A DNA stretch of 64,000 bases, taken from Gloeobacter violaceus PCC 7421. GTDB lineage: Bacteria > Cyanobacteriota > Cyanobacteriia > Gloeobacterales > Gloeobacteraceae. The notes under the pieces were generated by a model. The model was not told the origin of the DNA. It made no database searches and worked only from the letters and a program-made list of their open reading frames with translations. The stretch covers positions 4,340,001 to 4,404,000 of the forward strand of contig NC_005125.1 of the NCBI RefSeq assembly GCF_000011385.1. The letters are read 5' to 3'. Below, in pieces: positions 28,047 through 49,870 of this stretch (position 1 is its first letter; each line of letters starts with the position of its first letter). The translations under genes were made by a program, and so were the position numbers.

Positions 28047-31000
28047 CTAGGACCGTTCCACCAGCATGCCATCCAGGCCGAGAGCCTCGCGCTCCTGCTG
28101 CGAGAGGGCAGGGGCGGTGCGCTCGCCGAAGCGCTCGAACAACGCCGGGATCACCACCAGCGTCAGGGCCGTGGAAGTAAACAGCCCACCGAAGACGACC
28201 ACTGCGAGCGGTTGGAGGATCTCTTTACCGGCCGGTTCCCCCCACATCAAGGGCACCATGGCGAGGGCCGCCGTCAGTGCGGTCATCAGGACCGGCGAGA
28301 GACGCTCGATCGAGCCTTCTTCGATGGCCTCATCGAAACTTTCTCCGGCGGCTAGCCGCTGCTGGTAGGTGGTGACCAGGATCACCCCGTTGCGGTTGGC
28401 GATGCCAAACAGGGTGATAAAGCCCACCAGCGAGGCGACCGAGAGCACCCCGCCCCCCAGCCAGACCGCCACGATGCCGCCGATGAGGGCAAGCGGCAGA
28501 TTGGCGAGGATGAGCAGCGTCGAGCGCACCGAGCGCACCGCCAGAAACAGCAGCACTGCCACACCCCCCAGAGCCAGAGCACCGAAAATGAGCAGCTCAC
28601 GGGTGGCGCGCTGTTGGGCTTCGAACTGGCCGCCGTACTCGATGTAATAGCCCGCCGGTAGTGGCACCTGCCGGGCGATGTTGGTCCTGGCCTCGGCAAT
28701 GAGCGAGCCGAGGTCGCGGCCGTCGGCGTTGGCGGCCACGACGATGCGCCGCGAAACGTTTTCGCGGTTGATCGTGTTGGGGCCGGTGCTCGTGACGATG
28801 CTCGCCACCTGGGCGAGCGGAATCTTCTGACCTGTAGGCGTGTCGATGAGCAGTTCGCCGATTTTGTCCGGTCGGTCGCGGGCCTCCGGCGCCAGCCACA
28901 CCACCAGATCAAAAAGCCGCTGCTCTTCGAGTACCTGGGAGACGGCCCGGCCGTTGAGGGCCGTCTCGAGAGTCCCGGCCAACCGCCCGACCGTGAGGCC
29001 GTGGCGCGCCGCTCGAACGCGGTCGAAGCGCACCGACAACTGTTCGACGGGCACCTGCGGCTCCACCTGCAAGTCCACCACGCCGCTCACCGTCCGCAGC
29101 GCCTGTTCGACCTCGGCGGCCTTGGCGCGCAATACGGTGAGATCGGGGCCGAAGATCTTGACTGCCACCGCGGAGCGGGTGCCCGAGAGGGTCTCGTCGA
29201 TGCGGTGGGAGATGTAGCCGCCGACGTTGAGCGCCACCCCGGGAAACTTTTCCAGCACTTGCCGGACGCGCTCGACCGCCTCTGGATAGCTTTGGACTTT
29301 TGGGATCAACTGCACATCCAGTTCGCCGAAATCGACACCCCCCGCGTCGTCGTCGCCGATAGCCCGCCCGGCGCGAAACTGCACCGTCTCGACCTCGGGG
29401 ATGGCCATCAGCGCTTTTTCCATGGCCATCCCCAAACGTTGGGTCGAGGCGAGGGAAGCCCCCGGCAGTTGGGCGACGCGGATGGTGAGGCTGCGCTCCT
29501 GAAATTCCGGCAAAAACGTCGTCCCCAAAAAGGGAAGTATGGCCAGCGACAGCGCCAACAGCACCGCCGACCCCGCCAGGATGGGCGCCGGGTGGCGCAG
29601 GCTCCAGCCCAATACCGGGCGGTACAGCCGCTTGAGCCAGCGCACCAGCCGCGTCTCGCCGTCCGGCAGGCGTCGCCCGGCAAGCAGCACATAGCACAGC
29701 GCCGGGGTCACCGTGAGCGCCACCAACAGCGAAGCGAGCAGCGAAAAGACGTAGGCGAGGCCCAGCGGCGCAAAGACGCGGCCCTCGATGCCTGTGAGCG
29801 TAAACAGCGGCGCAATCACCACGCACAGGATCAGTGTGGCGAAGACCACCGAGCCGCGGATCTGGACCGAACCGGCGAAGACCACCTGCAAAGGCGGCTG
29901 CGGCTGCGGACGCGCCTGGTTCTCGCGCAGGCGGCGGTAGACGTTCTCCGCGTCGATGATCGCATCGTCGATCACTTCTCCCAGGGCGATGGCGAGTCCC
30001 CCCAGCGTCATGGTGTTGATGCCGACGCCGAAAGCGGCCAGCAGCGATAGTCCCAGGGCGATCGAAAGCGGCAGGGCGGTGAGGGTGATGAGCATCGTGC
30101 GCCAGTTGCCCAAAAACAGCACCAGCACCACCGCCACGATGATCACACCGTCCCTGAGCGCTTCGAGCACGTTGCCCACGGACTTGTCGATAAAATCTTC
30201 CTGGCGAAAAGTCGTGGTGACCCGCACGTCCTTGGGCAGCGTGGCCCGGATGTCGTCCATGGCCGCTTCTACCGCGCGCGTCACGGTGGGAGTATCGGCA
30301 AACGGCTGGCGAACCACCGTCACGATCACCGCCGCTTGTCCATTAAAAGACGCGTCGCCGCGCTTGACCCCTGAACCCGTCTGCACGCGGGCCACCTCCG
30401 CGATGCGCACAGGCACGCCGGAGCGCACGGCCACCACCGACTCGCCTAGATCCGCGAGCGAAGCGATTCGTCCTATCGCGCGGATGACCACTTCCCGGTC
30501 GGGCGACAGTAAAAAGCCGCCCGGCGCATTGAGGTTGGCTTCGCGCACCGCCTCGCTCACCTGGCCCAGCGTGACGCCAAATTGCTTGAGCCGGTCCGGG
30601 TCTACCAGCACCTGGTACTGCATCTCGCCGCCGCCGATGGCAAGCACGTTGGTGACGCCGGCAATGGCCAATAGCCGGTTGCGGATTGGCCAGTTGGCCA
30701 GGGTGGCCAGTTGCAGCAAATCGGTGCGCTCCGGCCCGGGCGCGTTTGGATCGACTATGAGCGCGTAGCGCAAAATCACGCCCACCGGGGAACTTGCCGG
30801 TAGCAGCAGCGGAGCATCCACCCCCTCGGGCAGACGGGGGACCGCCTGCTGCACCCGCTCGCTCACCAGTTGGCGGGCGCGCAGGATGTCGGTATTGCCT
30901 TCGAAGATGAGGGTGAGCGTCGAAAGACCGACGGCGGAACTGGAGCGGATGTCGGCAAGACCCGGTGTGCCGTTCAGTGCACTTTCGAGCGGCAGGGTCA

Positions 31001-31193
31001 CCAGCGATTCGACTTCCTCCGGCGCCAGGCCGGGGGCGACGGTCTGGAGGACCACCTGCGGCGGGGCAAAATTCGGAAACACATCGAGCGGCAGCCGCAC
31101 GGCGGTGGCAATGCCCAGGCCCAGCACCGCCACCGCCCCCAGCACCACCAGCCAGCGGGCGCCGAGCGACAGCAAAATCAACCGATTGAGCAT
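28047..31193 (-). CDS. RND efflux pump inner-membrane subunit, heavy-metal (CzcA/CusA) type
   Basis: A 1048-residue RND transporter, full length. Helix 4 reads LGEVIDDAIIDAENVYRRL, matching the acidic pattern of the heavy-metal HME-RND subgroup and not the HAE drug pumps. The family N-terminus is present (VLGLGIATAVRLPLDVFPN) along with TLGGLAIALGE and the second-half mirror block FGIANRNGVILVTTYQQRL. It would pump cations such as Co, Zn, Ni or Cu/Ag across the plasma membrane with the adaptor encoded 9 nt upstream. No outer-membrane channel gene is in the window. The metal cannot be deduced by eye. Confidence 0.92.
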   Translation of the reverse strand: MLNRLILLSLGARWLVVLGAVAVLGLGIATAVRLPLDVFPNFAPPQVVLQTVAPGLAPEEVESLVTLPLESALNGTPGLADIRSSSAVGLSTLTLIFEGNTDILRARQLVSERVQQAVPRLPEGVDAPLLLPASSPVGVILRYALIVDPNAPGPERTDLLQLATLANWPIRNRLLAIAGVTNVLAIGGGEMQYQVLVDPDRLKQFGVTLGQVSEAVREANLNAPGGFLLSPDREVVIRAIGRIASLADLGESVVAVRSGVPVRIAEVARVQTGSGVKRGDASFNGQAAVIVTVVRQPFADTPTVTRAVEAAMDDIRATLPKDVRVTTTFRQEDFIDKSVGNVLEALRDGVIIVAVVLVLFLGNWRTMLITLTALPLSIALGLSLLAAFGVGINTMTLGGLAIALGEVIDDAIIDAENVYRRLRENQARPQPQPPLQVVFAGSVQIRGSVVFATLILCVVIAPLFTLTGIEGRVFAPLGLAYVFSLLASLLVALTVTPALCYVLLAGRRLPDGETRLVRWLKRLYRPVLGWSLRHPAPILAGSAVLLALSLAILPFLGTTFLPEFQERSLTIRVAQLPGASLASTQRLGMAMEKALMAIPEVETVQFRAGRAIGDDDAGGVDFGELDVQLIPKVQSYPEAVERVRQVLEKFPGVALNVGGYISHRIDETLSGTRSAVAVKIFGPDLTVLRAKAAEVEQALRTVSGVVDLQVEPQVPVEQLSVRFDRVRAARHGLTVGRLAGTLETALNGRAVSQVLEEQRLFDLVVWLAPEARDRPDKIGELLIDTPTGQKIPLAQVASIVTSTGPNTINRENVSRRIVVAANADGRDLGSLIAEARTNIARQVPLPAGYYIEYGGQFEAQQRATRELLIFGALALGGVAVLLFLAVRSVRSTLLILANLPLALIGGIVAVWLGGGVLSVASLVGFITLFGIANRNGVILVTTYQQRLAAGESFDEAIEEGSIERLSPVLMTALTAALAMVPLMWGEPAGKEILQPLAVVVFGGLFTSTALTLVVIPALFERFGERTAPALSQQEREALGLDGMLVERS

Positions 31194-31202
31194 CGCCGCC
31201 TC

Positions 31203-32642
31203 CTAGGGCTTGGGGAGTGCGCCGGTCGAGACGCCCGCGCTTTGCCCGCCCCGGCGGCCCGCCACCTGCAGACCGGCCAGAAAACCCAGGACCGTCAGTG
31301 CCACCGCTGCCGCAAGCCAGATCCACGCGGGGATTTCGCCGTCCGGCCCGGGCGCCGCGGTCCGGGCCGTGGATGGCTTCGATGCTTTCTTTTGGCTGTG
31401 CTCGTCGCCGCCGACACCCGTCCCCTGCTGCTTCAAACTCTGGGCGCGCAACTGCCAAACGCGCTCGACGACCACTTCGTCGCCCGCGCGCACGCCTGCG
31501 CGCACCTCCACCGCCTCTTCGAAGCTGCGGCCCAATTCGACCGGCACCGGCCGAAAGCGGTCCGTTCCCGCTTTGCGGTAGACCACCGAAAGACCGTCGG
31601 CCGTCAGCACCGCCGAGCGGGGCACGACCGATACGGGCCGGGCCGCCCCGTCGCTTACCAGGAGCAACCGGGCGTACATCTGCGGCTTCAACAGCCCCTC
31701 CGGGTTGGTGAGCACCGCCCGCACCGCGAGCGTGCGCGTTTGGGGGTCCACCGCCGGGTCGATGCTCTCGATGCGGCCGCGAAACGTCCTGCCCGGATAG
31801 CTCTGGGTCGTCACCTCGATGGACCGACCCGCCCGCACCAGCCCCAGATCTTTTTCGTAGACCTGGGCGGTTGCCCAGACTTGCGTCGCATCGAGAATCC
31901 GAAAGAGCGCCTTGCCGGGTTCGACGGCTTCCCCCGCCGTCACCTGCTGATCTGCCACCACCCCGACAATCGGTGCAAAGAGCACCACCGTGCCGTCCGA
32001 GCGCGCACGCACGCCGCTTTGCCCCAGTTGGGCAAGCCGGGTGCTCAAGGCCGCCCCGCTGAGGGCGAGCCGGGAACGGGCCGCCCGCAAATCCGCCTCC
32101 GAAGCGCGCAAAGCGGCCTCGGCCTGCTGAAATTCGCGGCGGGCGGAGATCTTCAGTGCCACCAATTCTTTTTCCCGCTCGTAGTTCTGGTGGGCCAGCT
32201 GCACCCCGGCGCTGAGCCGGTCCACCTCGGAGCGGGCCTGGGCGCGCTCGCGCTCCGCCTCAAGCGCCAGGGTCCGCACCTCGGGACTATCGAGCACCGC
32301 CAGGGGCTGGCCCGCGCGCACCGCCCGGCCGCGCTGCACCTGCAGGCGCACGACCCGGCCCGCCACCGGGGCGTTGATCTCAGAAGAACGGCCGGGGATC
32401 GCCTCGATTTGACCGTTGACGGCCAGCCCCGCCCGCACCGGTCGCTCGCCCACGGCAGCCACCTTTAAACCCAATGCCCGCTGCATCTGCGGCTCGATGC
32501 GCACCTCGCCGCCACCGGCCACTTCCTGCGGAGCGAAAGTCGTCTCCCCGTGACCCCGCTCGTCGCCGGCTTCCACGGGAGCGCTCACCGCCGCTCCCAT
32601 CAGCACCGCCACCATCAAAATCCTTGCCGCTTTGCTGCGCAC
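31203..32642 (-). CDS. RND periplasmic adaptor (membrane fusion protein, CzcB/CusB type) with C-terminal helix
   Basis: A 479-residue adaptor. A signal peptide (RILMVAVLMGAAVSAPVEA) leads to the lipoyl/barrel halves (INAPVAGRVVRLQVQRGRAV; VLFAPIVGVVADQQVTAGEAV) and a long helical hairpin (EAERERAQARSEVDRLSAG). The unusual part is the C-terminus: after a Ser/Pro/Lys linker it ends in a membrane helix (IPAWIWLAAAVALTVLGFLA) and a short basic tail, which standard CzcB proteins lack. GTG 32642 follows AAGGAG. It is the first gene of the pump/CDF/USP operon and faces the BlaI/M56 genes. Confidence 0.88.
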   Translation of the reverse strand: MRSKAARILMVAVLMGAAVSAPVEAGDERGHGETTFAPQEVAGGGEVRIEPQMQRALGLKVAAVGERPVRAGLAVNGQIEAIPGRSSEINAPVAGRVVRLQVQRGRAVRAGQPLAVLDSPEVRTLALEAERERAQARSEVDRLSAGVQLAHQNYEREKELVALKISARREFQQAEAALRASEADLRAARSRLALSGAALSTRLAQLGQSGVRARSDGTVVLFAPIVGVVADQQVTAGEAVEPGKALFRILDATQVWATAQVYEKDLGLVRAGRSIEVTTQSYPGRTFRGRIESIDPAVDPQTRTLAVRAVLTNPEGLLKPQMYARLLLVSDGAARPVSVVPRSAVLTADGLSVVYRKAGTDRFRPVPVELGRSFEEAVEVRAGVRAGDEVVVERVWQLRAQSLKQQGTGVGGDEHSQKKASKPSTARTAAPGPDGEIPAWIWLAAAVALTVLGFLAGLQVAGRRGGQSAGVSTGALPKP

Positions 32643-34252: not shown

Positions 34253-34576
34253 ATGGCTCTGCTGCTGTTTGGGCTTGCGGCGGCGGCCGAAATTGGCGGC
34301 TGTTTTGCGTTCTGGTCGGTATTGCGCCTGGGTAAAAATCCGCTCTGGCTGGCCCCCGGCCTGGTGTCGCTGGTGGTATTCGCCTGGCTTTTGACGCGCT
34401 CGGAGGCGACCTACGCCGGTCGGGCCTACGCGGCCTATGGCGGTGTCTATATCGCGGCGTCGCTGGTGTGGTTGTGGCTGGTAGAAGGTACCCGGCCGGA
34501 TCGCTGGGATCTGGCCGGGGCACTTTTATGCTTGGCAGGAGCGGCCGTTATCCTGTTTGCCGACCGCTCCCCGTAG
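34253..34576 (+). CDS. YnfA/UPF0060 family membrane protein
   Basis: A 107-residue protein with four membrane helices typical of UPF0060 ([72 protein letters not shown]). The family resembles small multidrug resistance transporters and may export small molecules, but no substrate is proven. The motif PDRWDLAGA is strongly conserved in the family. It follows the M56 gene by 9 nt on the same strand, so it may be in the same transcription unit. It converges on the riboswitch-controlled small gene. Confidence 0.93.
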
Positions 34577-34582
34577 AGCCGT

Positions 34583-34777
34583 TTATCGGTTGGACGGCCG
34601 ACGGCGAGCCCAGCGCACGACCATCATCGCGCCGAGCGCCGCGAAGATGACCATCATCGCGAGGATGAACCAGTCGAGGGGCGTGGTCAAGATTTCGTCG
34701 AATCTTCCCTCGGCGATGTGGTTGAACACGTTGCCGTGGTCGGCGAGCACCAGGCCGTGAATCAACAGATTTATCAT
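34583..34777 (-). CDS. Riboswitch-controlled 64-residue membrane protein of unknown function
   Basis: A small protein with an amphipathic, His-containing N-terminus (MINLLIHGLVLADHGN, then VFNHIAEGRFDE) and one membrane helix (LDWFILAMMVIFAALGAMMV, about residues 33-52) followed by a basic tail (RWARRRPSNR). ATG 34777 has AAGGAG 6 nt upstream. A cobalamin riboswitch lies directly upstream on the same strand. This makes a role in cobalt or cobalamin uptake or trafficking likely; His residues 7, 14 and 20 could bind metal. I do not recognise a family and it does not look like CbtB. It is alone in its transcription unit, ending 6 nt from the convergent ynfA-type gene. Confidence 0.72.
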   Translation of the reverse strand: MINLLIHGLVLADHGNVFNHIAEGRFDEILTTPLDWFILAMMVIFAALGAMMVVRWARRRPSNR

Positions 34778-34809
34778 TGCTGCTCCTTGTATCCGTGGGA
34801 CGCGGAAAT

Positions 34810-34960
34810 GGGACGTGAAGCACTCTCGGCGGGCATCCTGGCTCAGGCACAATCGCCATCACAGTTGCGGCACAGCGGTGGATTCTCACCACGCTTTCCC
34901 CATTCAGGCCGGGCTGATCCCCCGGCCGCCGCAAGCGAAGCGATTCTATCACCCCCGCCG
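34810..34960 (-). promoter_or_regulatory. Cobalamin riboswitch (AdoCbl-type B12 element)
   Basis: On the minus strand the conserved core reads GGGGAAAGCGTGGTGAGAAT, then CCACCGCTGTGCCGCAACTG, then GAGCCAGGATGCCCGCC, which are the hallmark segments of B12 elements. It fills the gap between the DMT transporter stop and the 64-residue membrane gene, so it controls only that gene. The 3' end approaches the AAGGAG ribosome-binding site, suggesting control of translation initiation. Boundaries are approximate. Confidence 0.85.
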
Positions 34961-34976
34961 GTTGCTGTCGGAGCGC

Positions 34977-36005
34977 TCACATGCCTTTAAAGCCGCCGAT
35001 GGGTTCCAGCATCTCGGGGCTCGAAGCCGCCTGGGGTTGCCGCGAACCCCACTGGCTGAGCAGCAAACCGGCGATCACCAGGGTACCGCTGAAGTACTGG
35101 ATGCCGTCCGGCACTTCGCCCAGCAGAAAGTAGGCTCCCACAGTACCAATGGCCGGAATGAATGAACTGATCAAAGAAGCATCGAGGATGGCGGCGCGCT
35201 TGAGGCCGGAAAACCAGAGCAACTGCCCGAGGGCGACGATGACGGCTCCGTACAGGAGCATCCACTGCCACAGGACCGGCGAGAAAGCGTCCTGAAAGTG
35301 TTCCGGTCCATACAGAACCAGGGCGACGAAAAAGAAAATCACCGCTCCCAAAGCTGAGCGCACGACCAGATAAATGCCGGGGGGTACCGCGGCGAGGCTG
35401 TTTTTGCTGAGGATGGTGGCGACGGCGGAGGCGACGGCGGCCAGGGCTGCGAACCCTTCTCCCATCCCGAAGCTCCACAGATCTTCGGCCATCGAGAAAG
35501 TCGGGACACCGCCGGAGGGCAGCAGCAGCGGTACCAACGCGCCTACAAAGCACATCAGCGCCCCGATGCTCTGGTAGCGGTTAAGGCGCTCGCCGTACAG
35601 CCACACCGACAGCGCCAATAGCAGCGGTGTCTCGATACGGCTGACGAACAGCACACTGCTGACCATCGCCAGCGAAAGCGCCTGGAAGATCAAGGCGGGT
35701 GCGAGGGCACCGGCAAGCAGAGCAACGATGAGCAGCAGTGACAATTCCCGGCGGCTCAAGCGTCCCAGATTGCCCGGCGTCCAGTCGCTGCGGTAGACAG
35801 CAAACAGCACCGGCAGCGCACATAGATTGCCGACAAACAGAACGTTGCACAGCGAAATCGGATTGCGGCCCTCCACCGGATACTGGGTGCCCAGTTCGGT
35901 CAATTTGCGGACCACCGGATTGGCCAGACCAAAGATGAAGACGGCCAACCAAAGATAAATTTTGCCGGACACAGTGCCTGCGAAGCGGTCGCGAATCTCG
36001 GCCAT
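34977..36005 (-). CDS. EamA/DMT family transporter
   Basis: A 342-residue protein with about ten membrane helices in two EamA repeats (YLWLAVFIFGLANPVVRKL; GIYLVVRSALGAVIFFFVAL). The second repeat has YGAVIVALGQLLWFSGLKRA and PAIGTVGAYFLLGEVPDG, typical EamA loop positions. DMT transporters export or import amino acids, nucleotide sugars or other metabolites; the substrate is not predictable. It starts at ATG 36005 and ends just before the cobalamin riboswitch of the next gene. Confidence 0.92.
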   Translation of the reverse strand: MAEIRDRFAGTVSGKIYLWLAVFIFGLANPVVRKLTELGTQYPVEGRNPISLCNVLFVGNLCALPVLFAVYRSDWTPGNLGRLSRRELSLLLIVALLAGALAPALIFQALSLAMVSSVLFVSRIETPLLLALSVWLYGERLNRYQSIGALMCFVGALVPLLLPSGGVPTFSMAEDLWSFGMGEGFAALAAVASAVATILSKNSLAAVPPGIYLVVRSALGAVIFFFVALVLYGPEHFQDAFSPVLWQWMLLYGAVIVALGQLLWFSGLKRAAILDASLISSFIPAIGTVGAYFLLGEVPDGIQYFSGTLVIAGLLLSQWGSRQPQAASSPEMLEPIGGFKGM

Positions 36006-48753: not shown

Positions 48754-49698
48754 CTAAGGTGCTTGCCAGGCAAGTCCGTGGTAAGCACTCAGATCGGCGT
48801 AGGGATCCGCGGGCGGATGGTCATGGTTGTGGTCGTGCCCATGGGAATGACTATGCCCGTGATTACGGGCGTGACCGGAGCCGTGAACGGCGCTTACGGC
48901 GCGGCGGAATTTGCACATCTCGCAGTTCATCGCCACCCGTTGCTCGCGCGCCTCCTGCTCGCGTCTGCGCAGCAATTCAAAAAGCACCGGGTCGAGGCCG
49001 ATTTCATCGAGAGCCTGCACTGCGACTTGCGGATGCAACGTTTGCTGGAGGGCGGCCGTCTCCTGGATGCGCTTGACGAGTAGACCGGTAAATAAAAAGT
49101 ACGGCAGTACGACGACGCGCTTTGCCCCCCAGGTCCAGGCGCGCTCGAATCCCTGCTCCAGGCGGGGATGGGTGATGCCGATAAAGCAGACTTCGACCCC
49201 GAGATAGCCACTCCCTTCCCAGAGCAGGCGGGCCATCTTGCAGGCGTCGCCGTTGGCGTCGGGGTCCGACGAACCGCGCCCGACAAACAACAGCAGCGTC
49301 TCGGAGCGCGGGATGTCGCTGTGTTCGTCGAGACGGGCGAGCCGTTCCTGCCACAGTTCGATGAGGCCCGCGGTGATGCCCAGATGGCCGCCGTAGTGCA
49401 CCACCAGATCCGGATGGCGCTCGCGGGCGCGGTCCAGTTCGTTGGTGACGTCGAACTTATTGTGGCGGGCGGCAAATAACAGCAGCGGCACCGCGGTCAA
49501 ATCGCGGTAACCCAGCTCGATGCAGCGATCGACCCCTGCTTGGATCGACGGAGCGGTCAACTCCAAAAAACAGGGCACCACCGGCCGGGCCGGGTCGAAG
49601 TGCTGGTAAGCGGCGGCAAATTCCAGAAACGTCTCGCGCCCATCGGCATCGCGGGTGCCGTGGCCGATGAGCAACAAAGGATGGACCGTGTCGTGCAT
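48754..49698 (-). CDS. cbiX: Sirohydrochlorin cobaltochelatase CbiX, long form
   Basis: A protein of about 314 residues with two CbiX repeats (LLLIGHGTRDADGRETFLE; LLLFVGRGSSDPDANGDACK), each holding the His/Glu or Gly/Arg positions used in Co insertion into sirohydrochlorin, the branch step toward cobalamin. The C-terminus has MNCEMCKFR (a Met-x-Cys-x2-Cys Fe-S-type motif) and a His-rich stretch (HGHSHSHGHDHNHDH), as in long CbiX proteins. ATG 49698 was chosen; ATG 49710 is also possible. A cobalamin riboswitch directly upstream controls it. Confidence 0.93.
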   Translation of the reverse strand: MHDTVHPLLLIGHGTRDADGRETFLEFAAAYQHFDPARPVVPCFLELTAPSIQAGVDRCIELGYRDLTAVPLLLFAARHNKFDVTNELDRARERHPDLVVHYGGHLGITAGLIELWQERLARLDEHSDIPRSETLLLFVGRGSSDPDANGDACKMARLLWEGSGYLGVEVCFIGITHPRLEQGFERAWTWGAKRVVVLPYFLFTGLLVKRIQETAALQQTLHPQVAVQALDEIGLDPVLFELLRRREQEAREQRVAMNCEMCKFRRAVSAVHGSGHARNHGHSHSHGHDHNHDHPPADPYADLSAYHGLAWQAP

Positions 49699-49739
49699 GA
49701 ATAACCCCATTCCTGTGCAACGCAGGCGAATAACCGGAG

Positions 49740-49870
49740 GCAACGTCCAAAGGCGGCATTCTGACTTGGGAAGCCCATTACAGCTGCGGCACAGTACCGG
49801 GATCGCACCGGACTTTCCCGCTTTTGGACCTCAACAGGTTATCACCCTGCGCTGCAAGGCGCGGGAAGGC
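49740..49870 (-). promoter_or_regulatory. Cobalamin riboswitch upstream of cbiX
   Basis: The minus strand reads GCGGGAAAGTCCGGTGCGAT, then CCCGGTACTGTGCCGCAGCT, GTAATGGG and GTCAGAATGCCGCC, the B12-element core. GTCCAAA (49829-49823) can pair with TTTGGAC (49751-49745) as the closing stem. It ends about 50 nt before the cbiX ATG and is expected to shut off the gene when cobalamin is abundant. The outer boundary is approximate. Confidence 0.88.

Follow-up and report, generated by a model that had tools for sequence, protein, structure and literature searches.

The analysed window comprises 64,000 nucleotides of Gloeobacter violaceus PCC 7421, corresponding to positions 4340001-4404000 of its single-contig genome of 4,659,019 bp. 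On the minus strand, a cobalamin riboswitch, a short hairpin, a Shine-Dalgarno (SD) sequence and an ORF of 64 codons follow each other in this order. The initial annotation had placed a B12 element in front of this ORF, and the Rfam covariance model bears this out: cmscan assigned the aptamer (34811..34948, minus strand) to RF00174 with 57.7 bits (E 1e-11; gathering score 31.5) in a match spanning the full model, i.e. positions 1-189. The element upstream of the ORF is unremarkable within this known riboswitch family. The ORF itself (34583..34777, minus strand) starts with an ATG at 34777 and encodes a protein with a single transmembrane (TM) segment, MINLLIHGLVLADHGNVFNHIAEGRFDEILTTPLDWFILAMMVIFAALGAMMVVRWARRRPSNR. 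An alternative reading of 89 amino acids from a TTG, as given in the ORF list, was dismissed: its start falls inside the aptamer, and the ATG preceded by AAGGAG represents the better start. The next gene past the ORF encodes a YnfA/UPF0060 protein (34253-34576, plus strand). It runs convergently, its stop codon 6 bases from that of the ORF, which leaves the 64-aa ORF as the sole gene that the riboswitch can control, just as had been claimed initially. Beyond YnfA, genes for an M56 peptidase and subsequently a BlaI-type repressor are located on the plus strand, and past this block the minus strand encodes a CusA/CzcA-type RND exporter and its adaptor (28047-32642). On the other side, an EamA transporter gene (34977-36005, minus strand) ends 28 bases before the aptamer; this position upstream of the riboswitch rules out that EamA is controlled by the latter.

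The leader downstream of the aptamer resembles an expression platform. A P13-like hairpin read from the sequence (UCCG-CGUCCCA-CGGA; 34792..34806, minus strand) is followed after 3 nt by the SD sequence AAGGAG (34783..34788, minus strand), which in turn precedes the ATG by 5 nt. Alignment showed that the hairpin is identical in both congeners that possess the ORF and that AAGGAG is invariant across the three species. In other riboswitches of the order, the P13-like stem is formed by CCUG/CAGG or CCCG/CGGG. A full-model aptamer match and a hairpin adjoining the SD are the features held in common with the RF00174 class that uses a P13 kissing loop. In the clade's riboswitches preceding BtuB and CbiX, L5 (UGUGCC) can pair with five L13 bases (GCACA), whereas L13 of the riboswitch studied here (CCCACG, identical in three species) offers four kissing-loop pairs including one wobble; that is, GUCCCAC takes the place of GU[CU]GCAC and complementarity drops from five to four pairs. 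Since a scan of the leader detected no intrinsic-terminator-like site between aptamer and ATG and the SD starts three bases past the hairpin, an arrangement known from translational switches, control at the level of translation appears most likely. A consensus scan also returned a promoter-like site (CCGACA-17-TAGAAT with TG before the -10 box; 34943..34971, minus strand), which matches the consensus at 9/12 positions and overlaps the first bases of the aptamer; with one such site found and 0.5 expected by chance, this is weak evidence.

According to the initial annotation, a missing covariance-model hit, homologues never located near cobalamin elements or a lack of codon conservation in relatives would have spoken against its reading; none of the three turned out to be the case. 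Calculation of dN/dS according to Nei and Gojobori yielded values of 0.122, 0.162 and 0.141 for the 64-aa ORF in three species pairs, as compared to about 1.0 and 3.2 for the out-of-frame controls in one pair. The orthologue of one species is shorter by exactly one Arg codon, which keeps the frame. The ORF is present in two of the three other genomes of the genus, one of them the metagenome-assembled genome (MAG) Aphanocapsa lilacina HA4352-LM1, with 92-94% protein identity, and is preceded in both by the same riboswitch (57.2 and 57.9 bits) at the same locus, which is syntenic over 7-8 kb. From this co-occurrence, the high identity and the dN/dS range of 0.12-0.16 we conclude that the 64-aa ORF is a real gene under purifying selection that is inherited together with its riboswitch. 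At the nucleotide level, conservation of the leader exceeds that of the ORF, which would be in line with a riboswitch that mainly functions as an RNA, binding cobamide as a decoy or sponge, with an incidental ORF behind it. However, the canonical SD and the strong selection acting on the protein sequence render this scenario highly improbable.

Gloeobacter represents the earliest-branching cyanobacterial lineage, and the gene appears to be confined to it. In the fourth genome of the genus (G002), neither the ORF nor its riboswitch was found, and the best match to EamA is only a paralogue with 50% identity. A profile built from the three orthologues was run against 386 genomes across the phylum and detected no credible homologue beyond the genus; the best match phylum-wide (E 0.003) turned out to be a 30-residue alignment containing a stop, and the rest were single-TM chance matches. 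A pattern-seeded scan of genome contigs from 84,980 species returned the congener MAG as the only match, and a plasmid search yielded no homologue. The protein had not been recognised at the outset, and in agreement, no family in Pfam, NCBIfam, PHROGs or PDB sequences matched it above cut-off. Sub-threshold matches to Pfam CopD (E 0.017), NCBIfam TIGR03943 (0.094) and PHROG 26907 (0.94) were discarded, as were matches to PDB sequences, which at E 0.46 or worse remained below any cut-off. Moreover, no mention of the gene was found in the papers covered on Gloeobacter with cobalamin riboswitches. Judged by these comparisons, the gene behind the riboswitch encodes a small membrane protein that is unrecognised, restricted to the genus and so far without a counterpart elsewhere.

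The conserved surroundings invite the idea that the product serves as a small regulatory protein or helps in assembly, e.g. by stabilising a membrane enzyme or the adjacent EamA or RND exporters, and that it merely happens to be tied to B12 status, with no role in metal handling. Small single-TM proteins are often regulators, and the upstream EamA gene as well as YnfA, the BlaI/M56 pair and the RND cluster downstream are syntenic in both congeners. On the other hand, EamA is encoded upstream of the riboswitch, YnfA, M56 and BlaI reside on the other strand, and in G005, a more distantly related genome of the family, the EamA orthologue (78% over 229 residues) has neither riboswitch nor ORF. We therefore regard such a role as unlikely. 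As a separate observation, the EamA orthologue of G005 is followed by genes for a NicO permease, a CobW-type GTPase and a WD40 protein (L124 8197-8841, minus strand, onwards); the NicO of this set is also found elsewhere in the genome of the window (L080), and a palindrome-like stretch in front of it, noted by eye, may be a metal-regulator box.

What could be the architecture of the protein? A hydropathy scan revealed one strong TM segment at about residues 34-55 (mean hydropathy 2.5 over 19 residues), which is the only segment exceeding 1.6. The earlier description as a one-helix protein is right for this strong TM helix, while an AlphaFold2 model computed from the three sequences (pLDDT 73, pTM 0.39; too poor for a fold search) adds an N-terminal helix at 2-22 to the one at 33-58 and is confident only for the latter. 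The protein had initially been described as His-bearing, and indeed H7, H14 and H20 are invariant across the orthologues; all three precede the TM segment. Five acidic residues (D13, E23, D27, E28 and D35) are likewise located before the TM segment or at its start, whereas RWARRR directly follows the helix within the C-terminal sequence RWARRRPSNR. According to the positive-inside rule, the Arg-rich C-terminal side and the acidic N-terminal side point to an N-terminus outside. Thus, the predicted topology should expose the N-terminus and the three His residues to the outside and retain the Arg-rich end inside.

For comparison, we surveyed 130 cobalamin riboswitches from about 100 cyanobacterial genomes and classed the following gene by motif. 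HupE was the commonest (30/130), followed by a DUF1636-like small metal-binding protein (28), CbiM (22), MetE (13), CobW (6), CbtB (3) and CbiX (2); about a dozen genes encode BtuB-like receptors and the remainder stayed unclassified. Hence, 55 riboswitches, i.e. about 42%, are followed by a gene for cobalt transport, namely HupE, CbiM or the 60-residue CbtB. CbtB was confirmed by Pfam in two cases, L218 and L028/G006, the latter a member of the Gloeobacterales, which means that the phylum already has a known precedent for a riboswitch target with ~60 amino acids, a single TM helix and outward His. The initial annotation's proposal that the 64-aa protein takes part in transport of cobalt or cobalamin, or acts as a chaperone for them, would plausibly fit this regulon and the predicted outward His residues. 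Two further observations emerged from the survey. The riboswitch-linked CbtB genes (L218, L094, L098 and L028) adjoin a gene for a membrane protein of ~380 amino acids rather than CbtA; the L218 copy matched nothing in Pfam and the other three look alike by eye, and this protein may be an unrecognised partner of CbtB. In addition, four strong cobalamin riboswitches (L088, L097, L195 and L200) lack a long gene right after the aptamer, which possibly reflects long leaders or unannotated small genes.

Comparison with known cobalt transporters and their small subunits reveals likenesses to several of them. CbtB (PF09489), the small subunit of the predicted cobalt transporter CbtAB, resembles the 64-aa protein in length, in its single TM helix, in its predicted outer His and in having a cobalamin riboswitch immediately in front of its gene in other cyanobacteria. 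However, the His residues of CbtB are located at the C-terminus (HxxRH...CH) rather than at the N-terminus and its membrane orientation is opposite. The 64-aa protein was rejected as a CbtB orthologue: it shares no sequence similarity with CbtB and gave no Pfam match at E up to 1. An order-wide search detected CbtB above cut-off in G006 only, and CbtA (PF09490) is absent from all nine genomes of the order. CbiN, the small subunit of CbiMNQO whose extracytoplasmic loop acts on the metal transporter (PMC7689651), is similarly a small membrane protein with an extracytoplasmic segment, but has two TM helices as compared to the one strong TM helix here, and its Pfam family does not match the 64-aa protein. 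Furthermore, the CbiM of this genome is already paired with a PDGLE partner. HupE is a cobalt transporter, and cobalt uptake is subject to riboswitch control (PMC7689651); HupE/UreJ (PF04955) has six helices and the motif HPxxGxDH, which is absent from the single-helix 64-aa protein, and no Pfam match to this family was obtained. An origin as N-terminal HupE fragment was rejected, as the profile score was matched by 270/2000 segment-shuffled decoys. The best reading of these comparisons is that the protein would be an accessory resembling CbtB and CbiN in size and predicted outer His, while belonging to neither family.

A further likeness concerns CbiM (PF01891), which starts with MHI-x-EG-FLP: the 64-aa protein contains HIAEG...PxxW before its TM segment, in the same order and predicted orientation. 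CbiM is a whole permease, whereas the 64-aa protein has one helix and a 6-residue insertion, and no Pfam match to CbiM was obtained at E up to 1. A profile of cyanobacterial CbiM N-termini aligned HIAEG...PLDWF with 5.6 bits, a score equalled by 25/2000 segment-shuffled decoys (p about 0.01, post hoc). Against a background of natural windows, the protein ranked 11/455, and several of those above it were true CbiM, HupE or orthologues of the query. As HupE N-termini also score with this profile, it is not specific. The CbiM-like stretch, found post hoc and below significance, is therefore suggestive only, a lead rather than evidence of descent. It could also be viewed as a trace of decay, the gene being what is left of, for example, a CbiM-type transporter (its N-terminal part) that was once controlled by this riboswitch. 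That the gene is short, stands alone and has a restricted distribution, and that CbiM ranks third among the genes behind cyanobacterial cobalamin riboswitches, would agree with such a history, but the low dN/dS, the intact frame, the codon-length indel and the preserved SD in the three species speak for a short form that is itself functional, making a remnant very unlikely.

The genome of the window contains three cobalamin riboswitches, the other two preceding a BtuB-like TonB receptor and CbiX. The latter element also resides in the window (49735-49864, minus strand; 37.1 bits) in front of the gene for a CbiX-type cobaltochelatase with a His-rich C-terminal tail (48754-49698, minus strand); this arrangement is ordinary and shared with two congeners and L028. 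The BtuB-like receptor, together with the BtuB-like receptors encountered in the survey, raises the question of whether the 64-aa protein aids uptake of corrinoids rather than cobalt, as a small partner of TonB/BtuB or BtuCDF or in a remodelling step. Yet, the gene is unlinked to btu genes, the congener lacking the ORF keeps its BtuB riboswitch, and to our knowledge no btu component is a single-TM protein of 64 amino acids, so that we consider this role improbable. As for cobalt itself, the genome encodes the CbiM/PDGLE system and two NicO permeases, none of them behind the three riboswitches, whereas HupE, CbtA and CbtB are absent. One NicO gene is located directly before CobN (1222 aa; L079 4878-9449, plus strand) and has no riboswitch; its position next to CobN suggests a cobalt-specific NicO. 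NicO genes occur in all three ORF-bearing genomes of the genus and are missing in the ORF-less one, but two genomes outside the genus possess NicO without the 64-aa ORF, and therefore the pairing of NicO and ORF is only a hint.

As the protein has neither a homologue outside the genus nor a family match, its role has to be read from regulation, size and topology, and with the gene confined to one genus, the riboswitch provides the only guilt-by-association. On these grounds, we favour, at somewhat less than even confidence, an accessory of cobalt uptake that is made at low cobamide, with partner and metal as suppositions. That is, a riboswitch that presumably switches translation OFF would control a one-gene unit: with plentiful adenosyl- or other cobamide, the aptamer would kiss the SD-adjacent hairpin and translation would be blocked, whereas a fall in cobamide would allow synthesis of the 64-residue single-pass inner-membrane protein, predicted to be N-out with its Arg-rich C-terminus inside. 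The segment N-terminal to the helix, predicted to face outward and carrying H7, H14 and H20 along with several acidic residues, would most likely bind Co2+, which could be handed to a cobalt transporter of the inner membrane that escapes control by the riboswitch, or the protein may activate this transporter. In doing so, it would act as an accessory subunit like CbtB or CbiN. Candidate partners are the NicO next to CobN, the second NicO and CbiM-PDGLE-QO. Several points speak against a cobalt accessory: NicO and CbiM, the presumed partners, are also encoded by relatives that lack the ORF, His is not cobalt-specific, the NicO/CbiM systems could serve nickel, the kissing loop is weaker than in the clade's other riboswitches, and the resemblance to CbiM falls short of significance. 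The more specific version, in which a genus-restricted micro-subunit for cobalt or corrinoid uptake exposes its His residues, possibly in a CbiM-like HIxEG motif, to the outside and activates a constitutive NicO or CbiM at low cobamide, is regarded as doubtful.

If this proposal is true, B12 feedback would act on a 64-aa activator and not on the transporter gene. Several cobalt transporters were first found via cobalamin riboswitches (PMC7689651). Such riboswitches almost always govern genes with a recognised link to B12 or cobalt. A lone, conserved and unrecognised membrane protein of 64 amino acids in this position is therefore a well-defined candidate, possibly a new part of the machinery that supplies the cell with cobalt or corrinoids.
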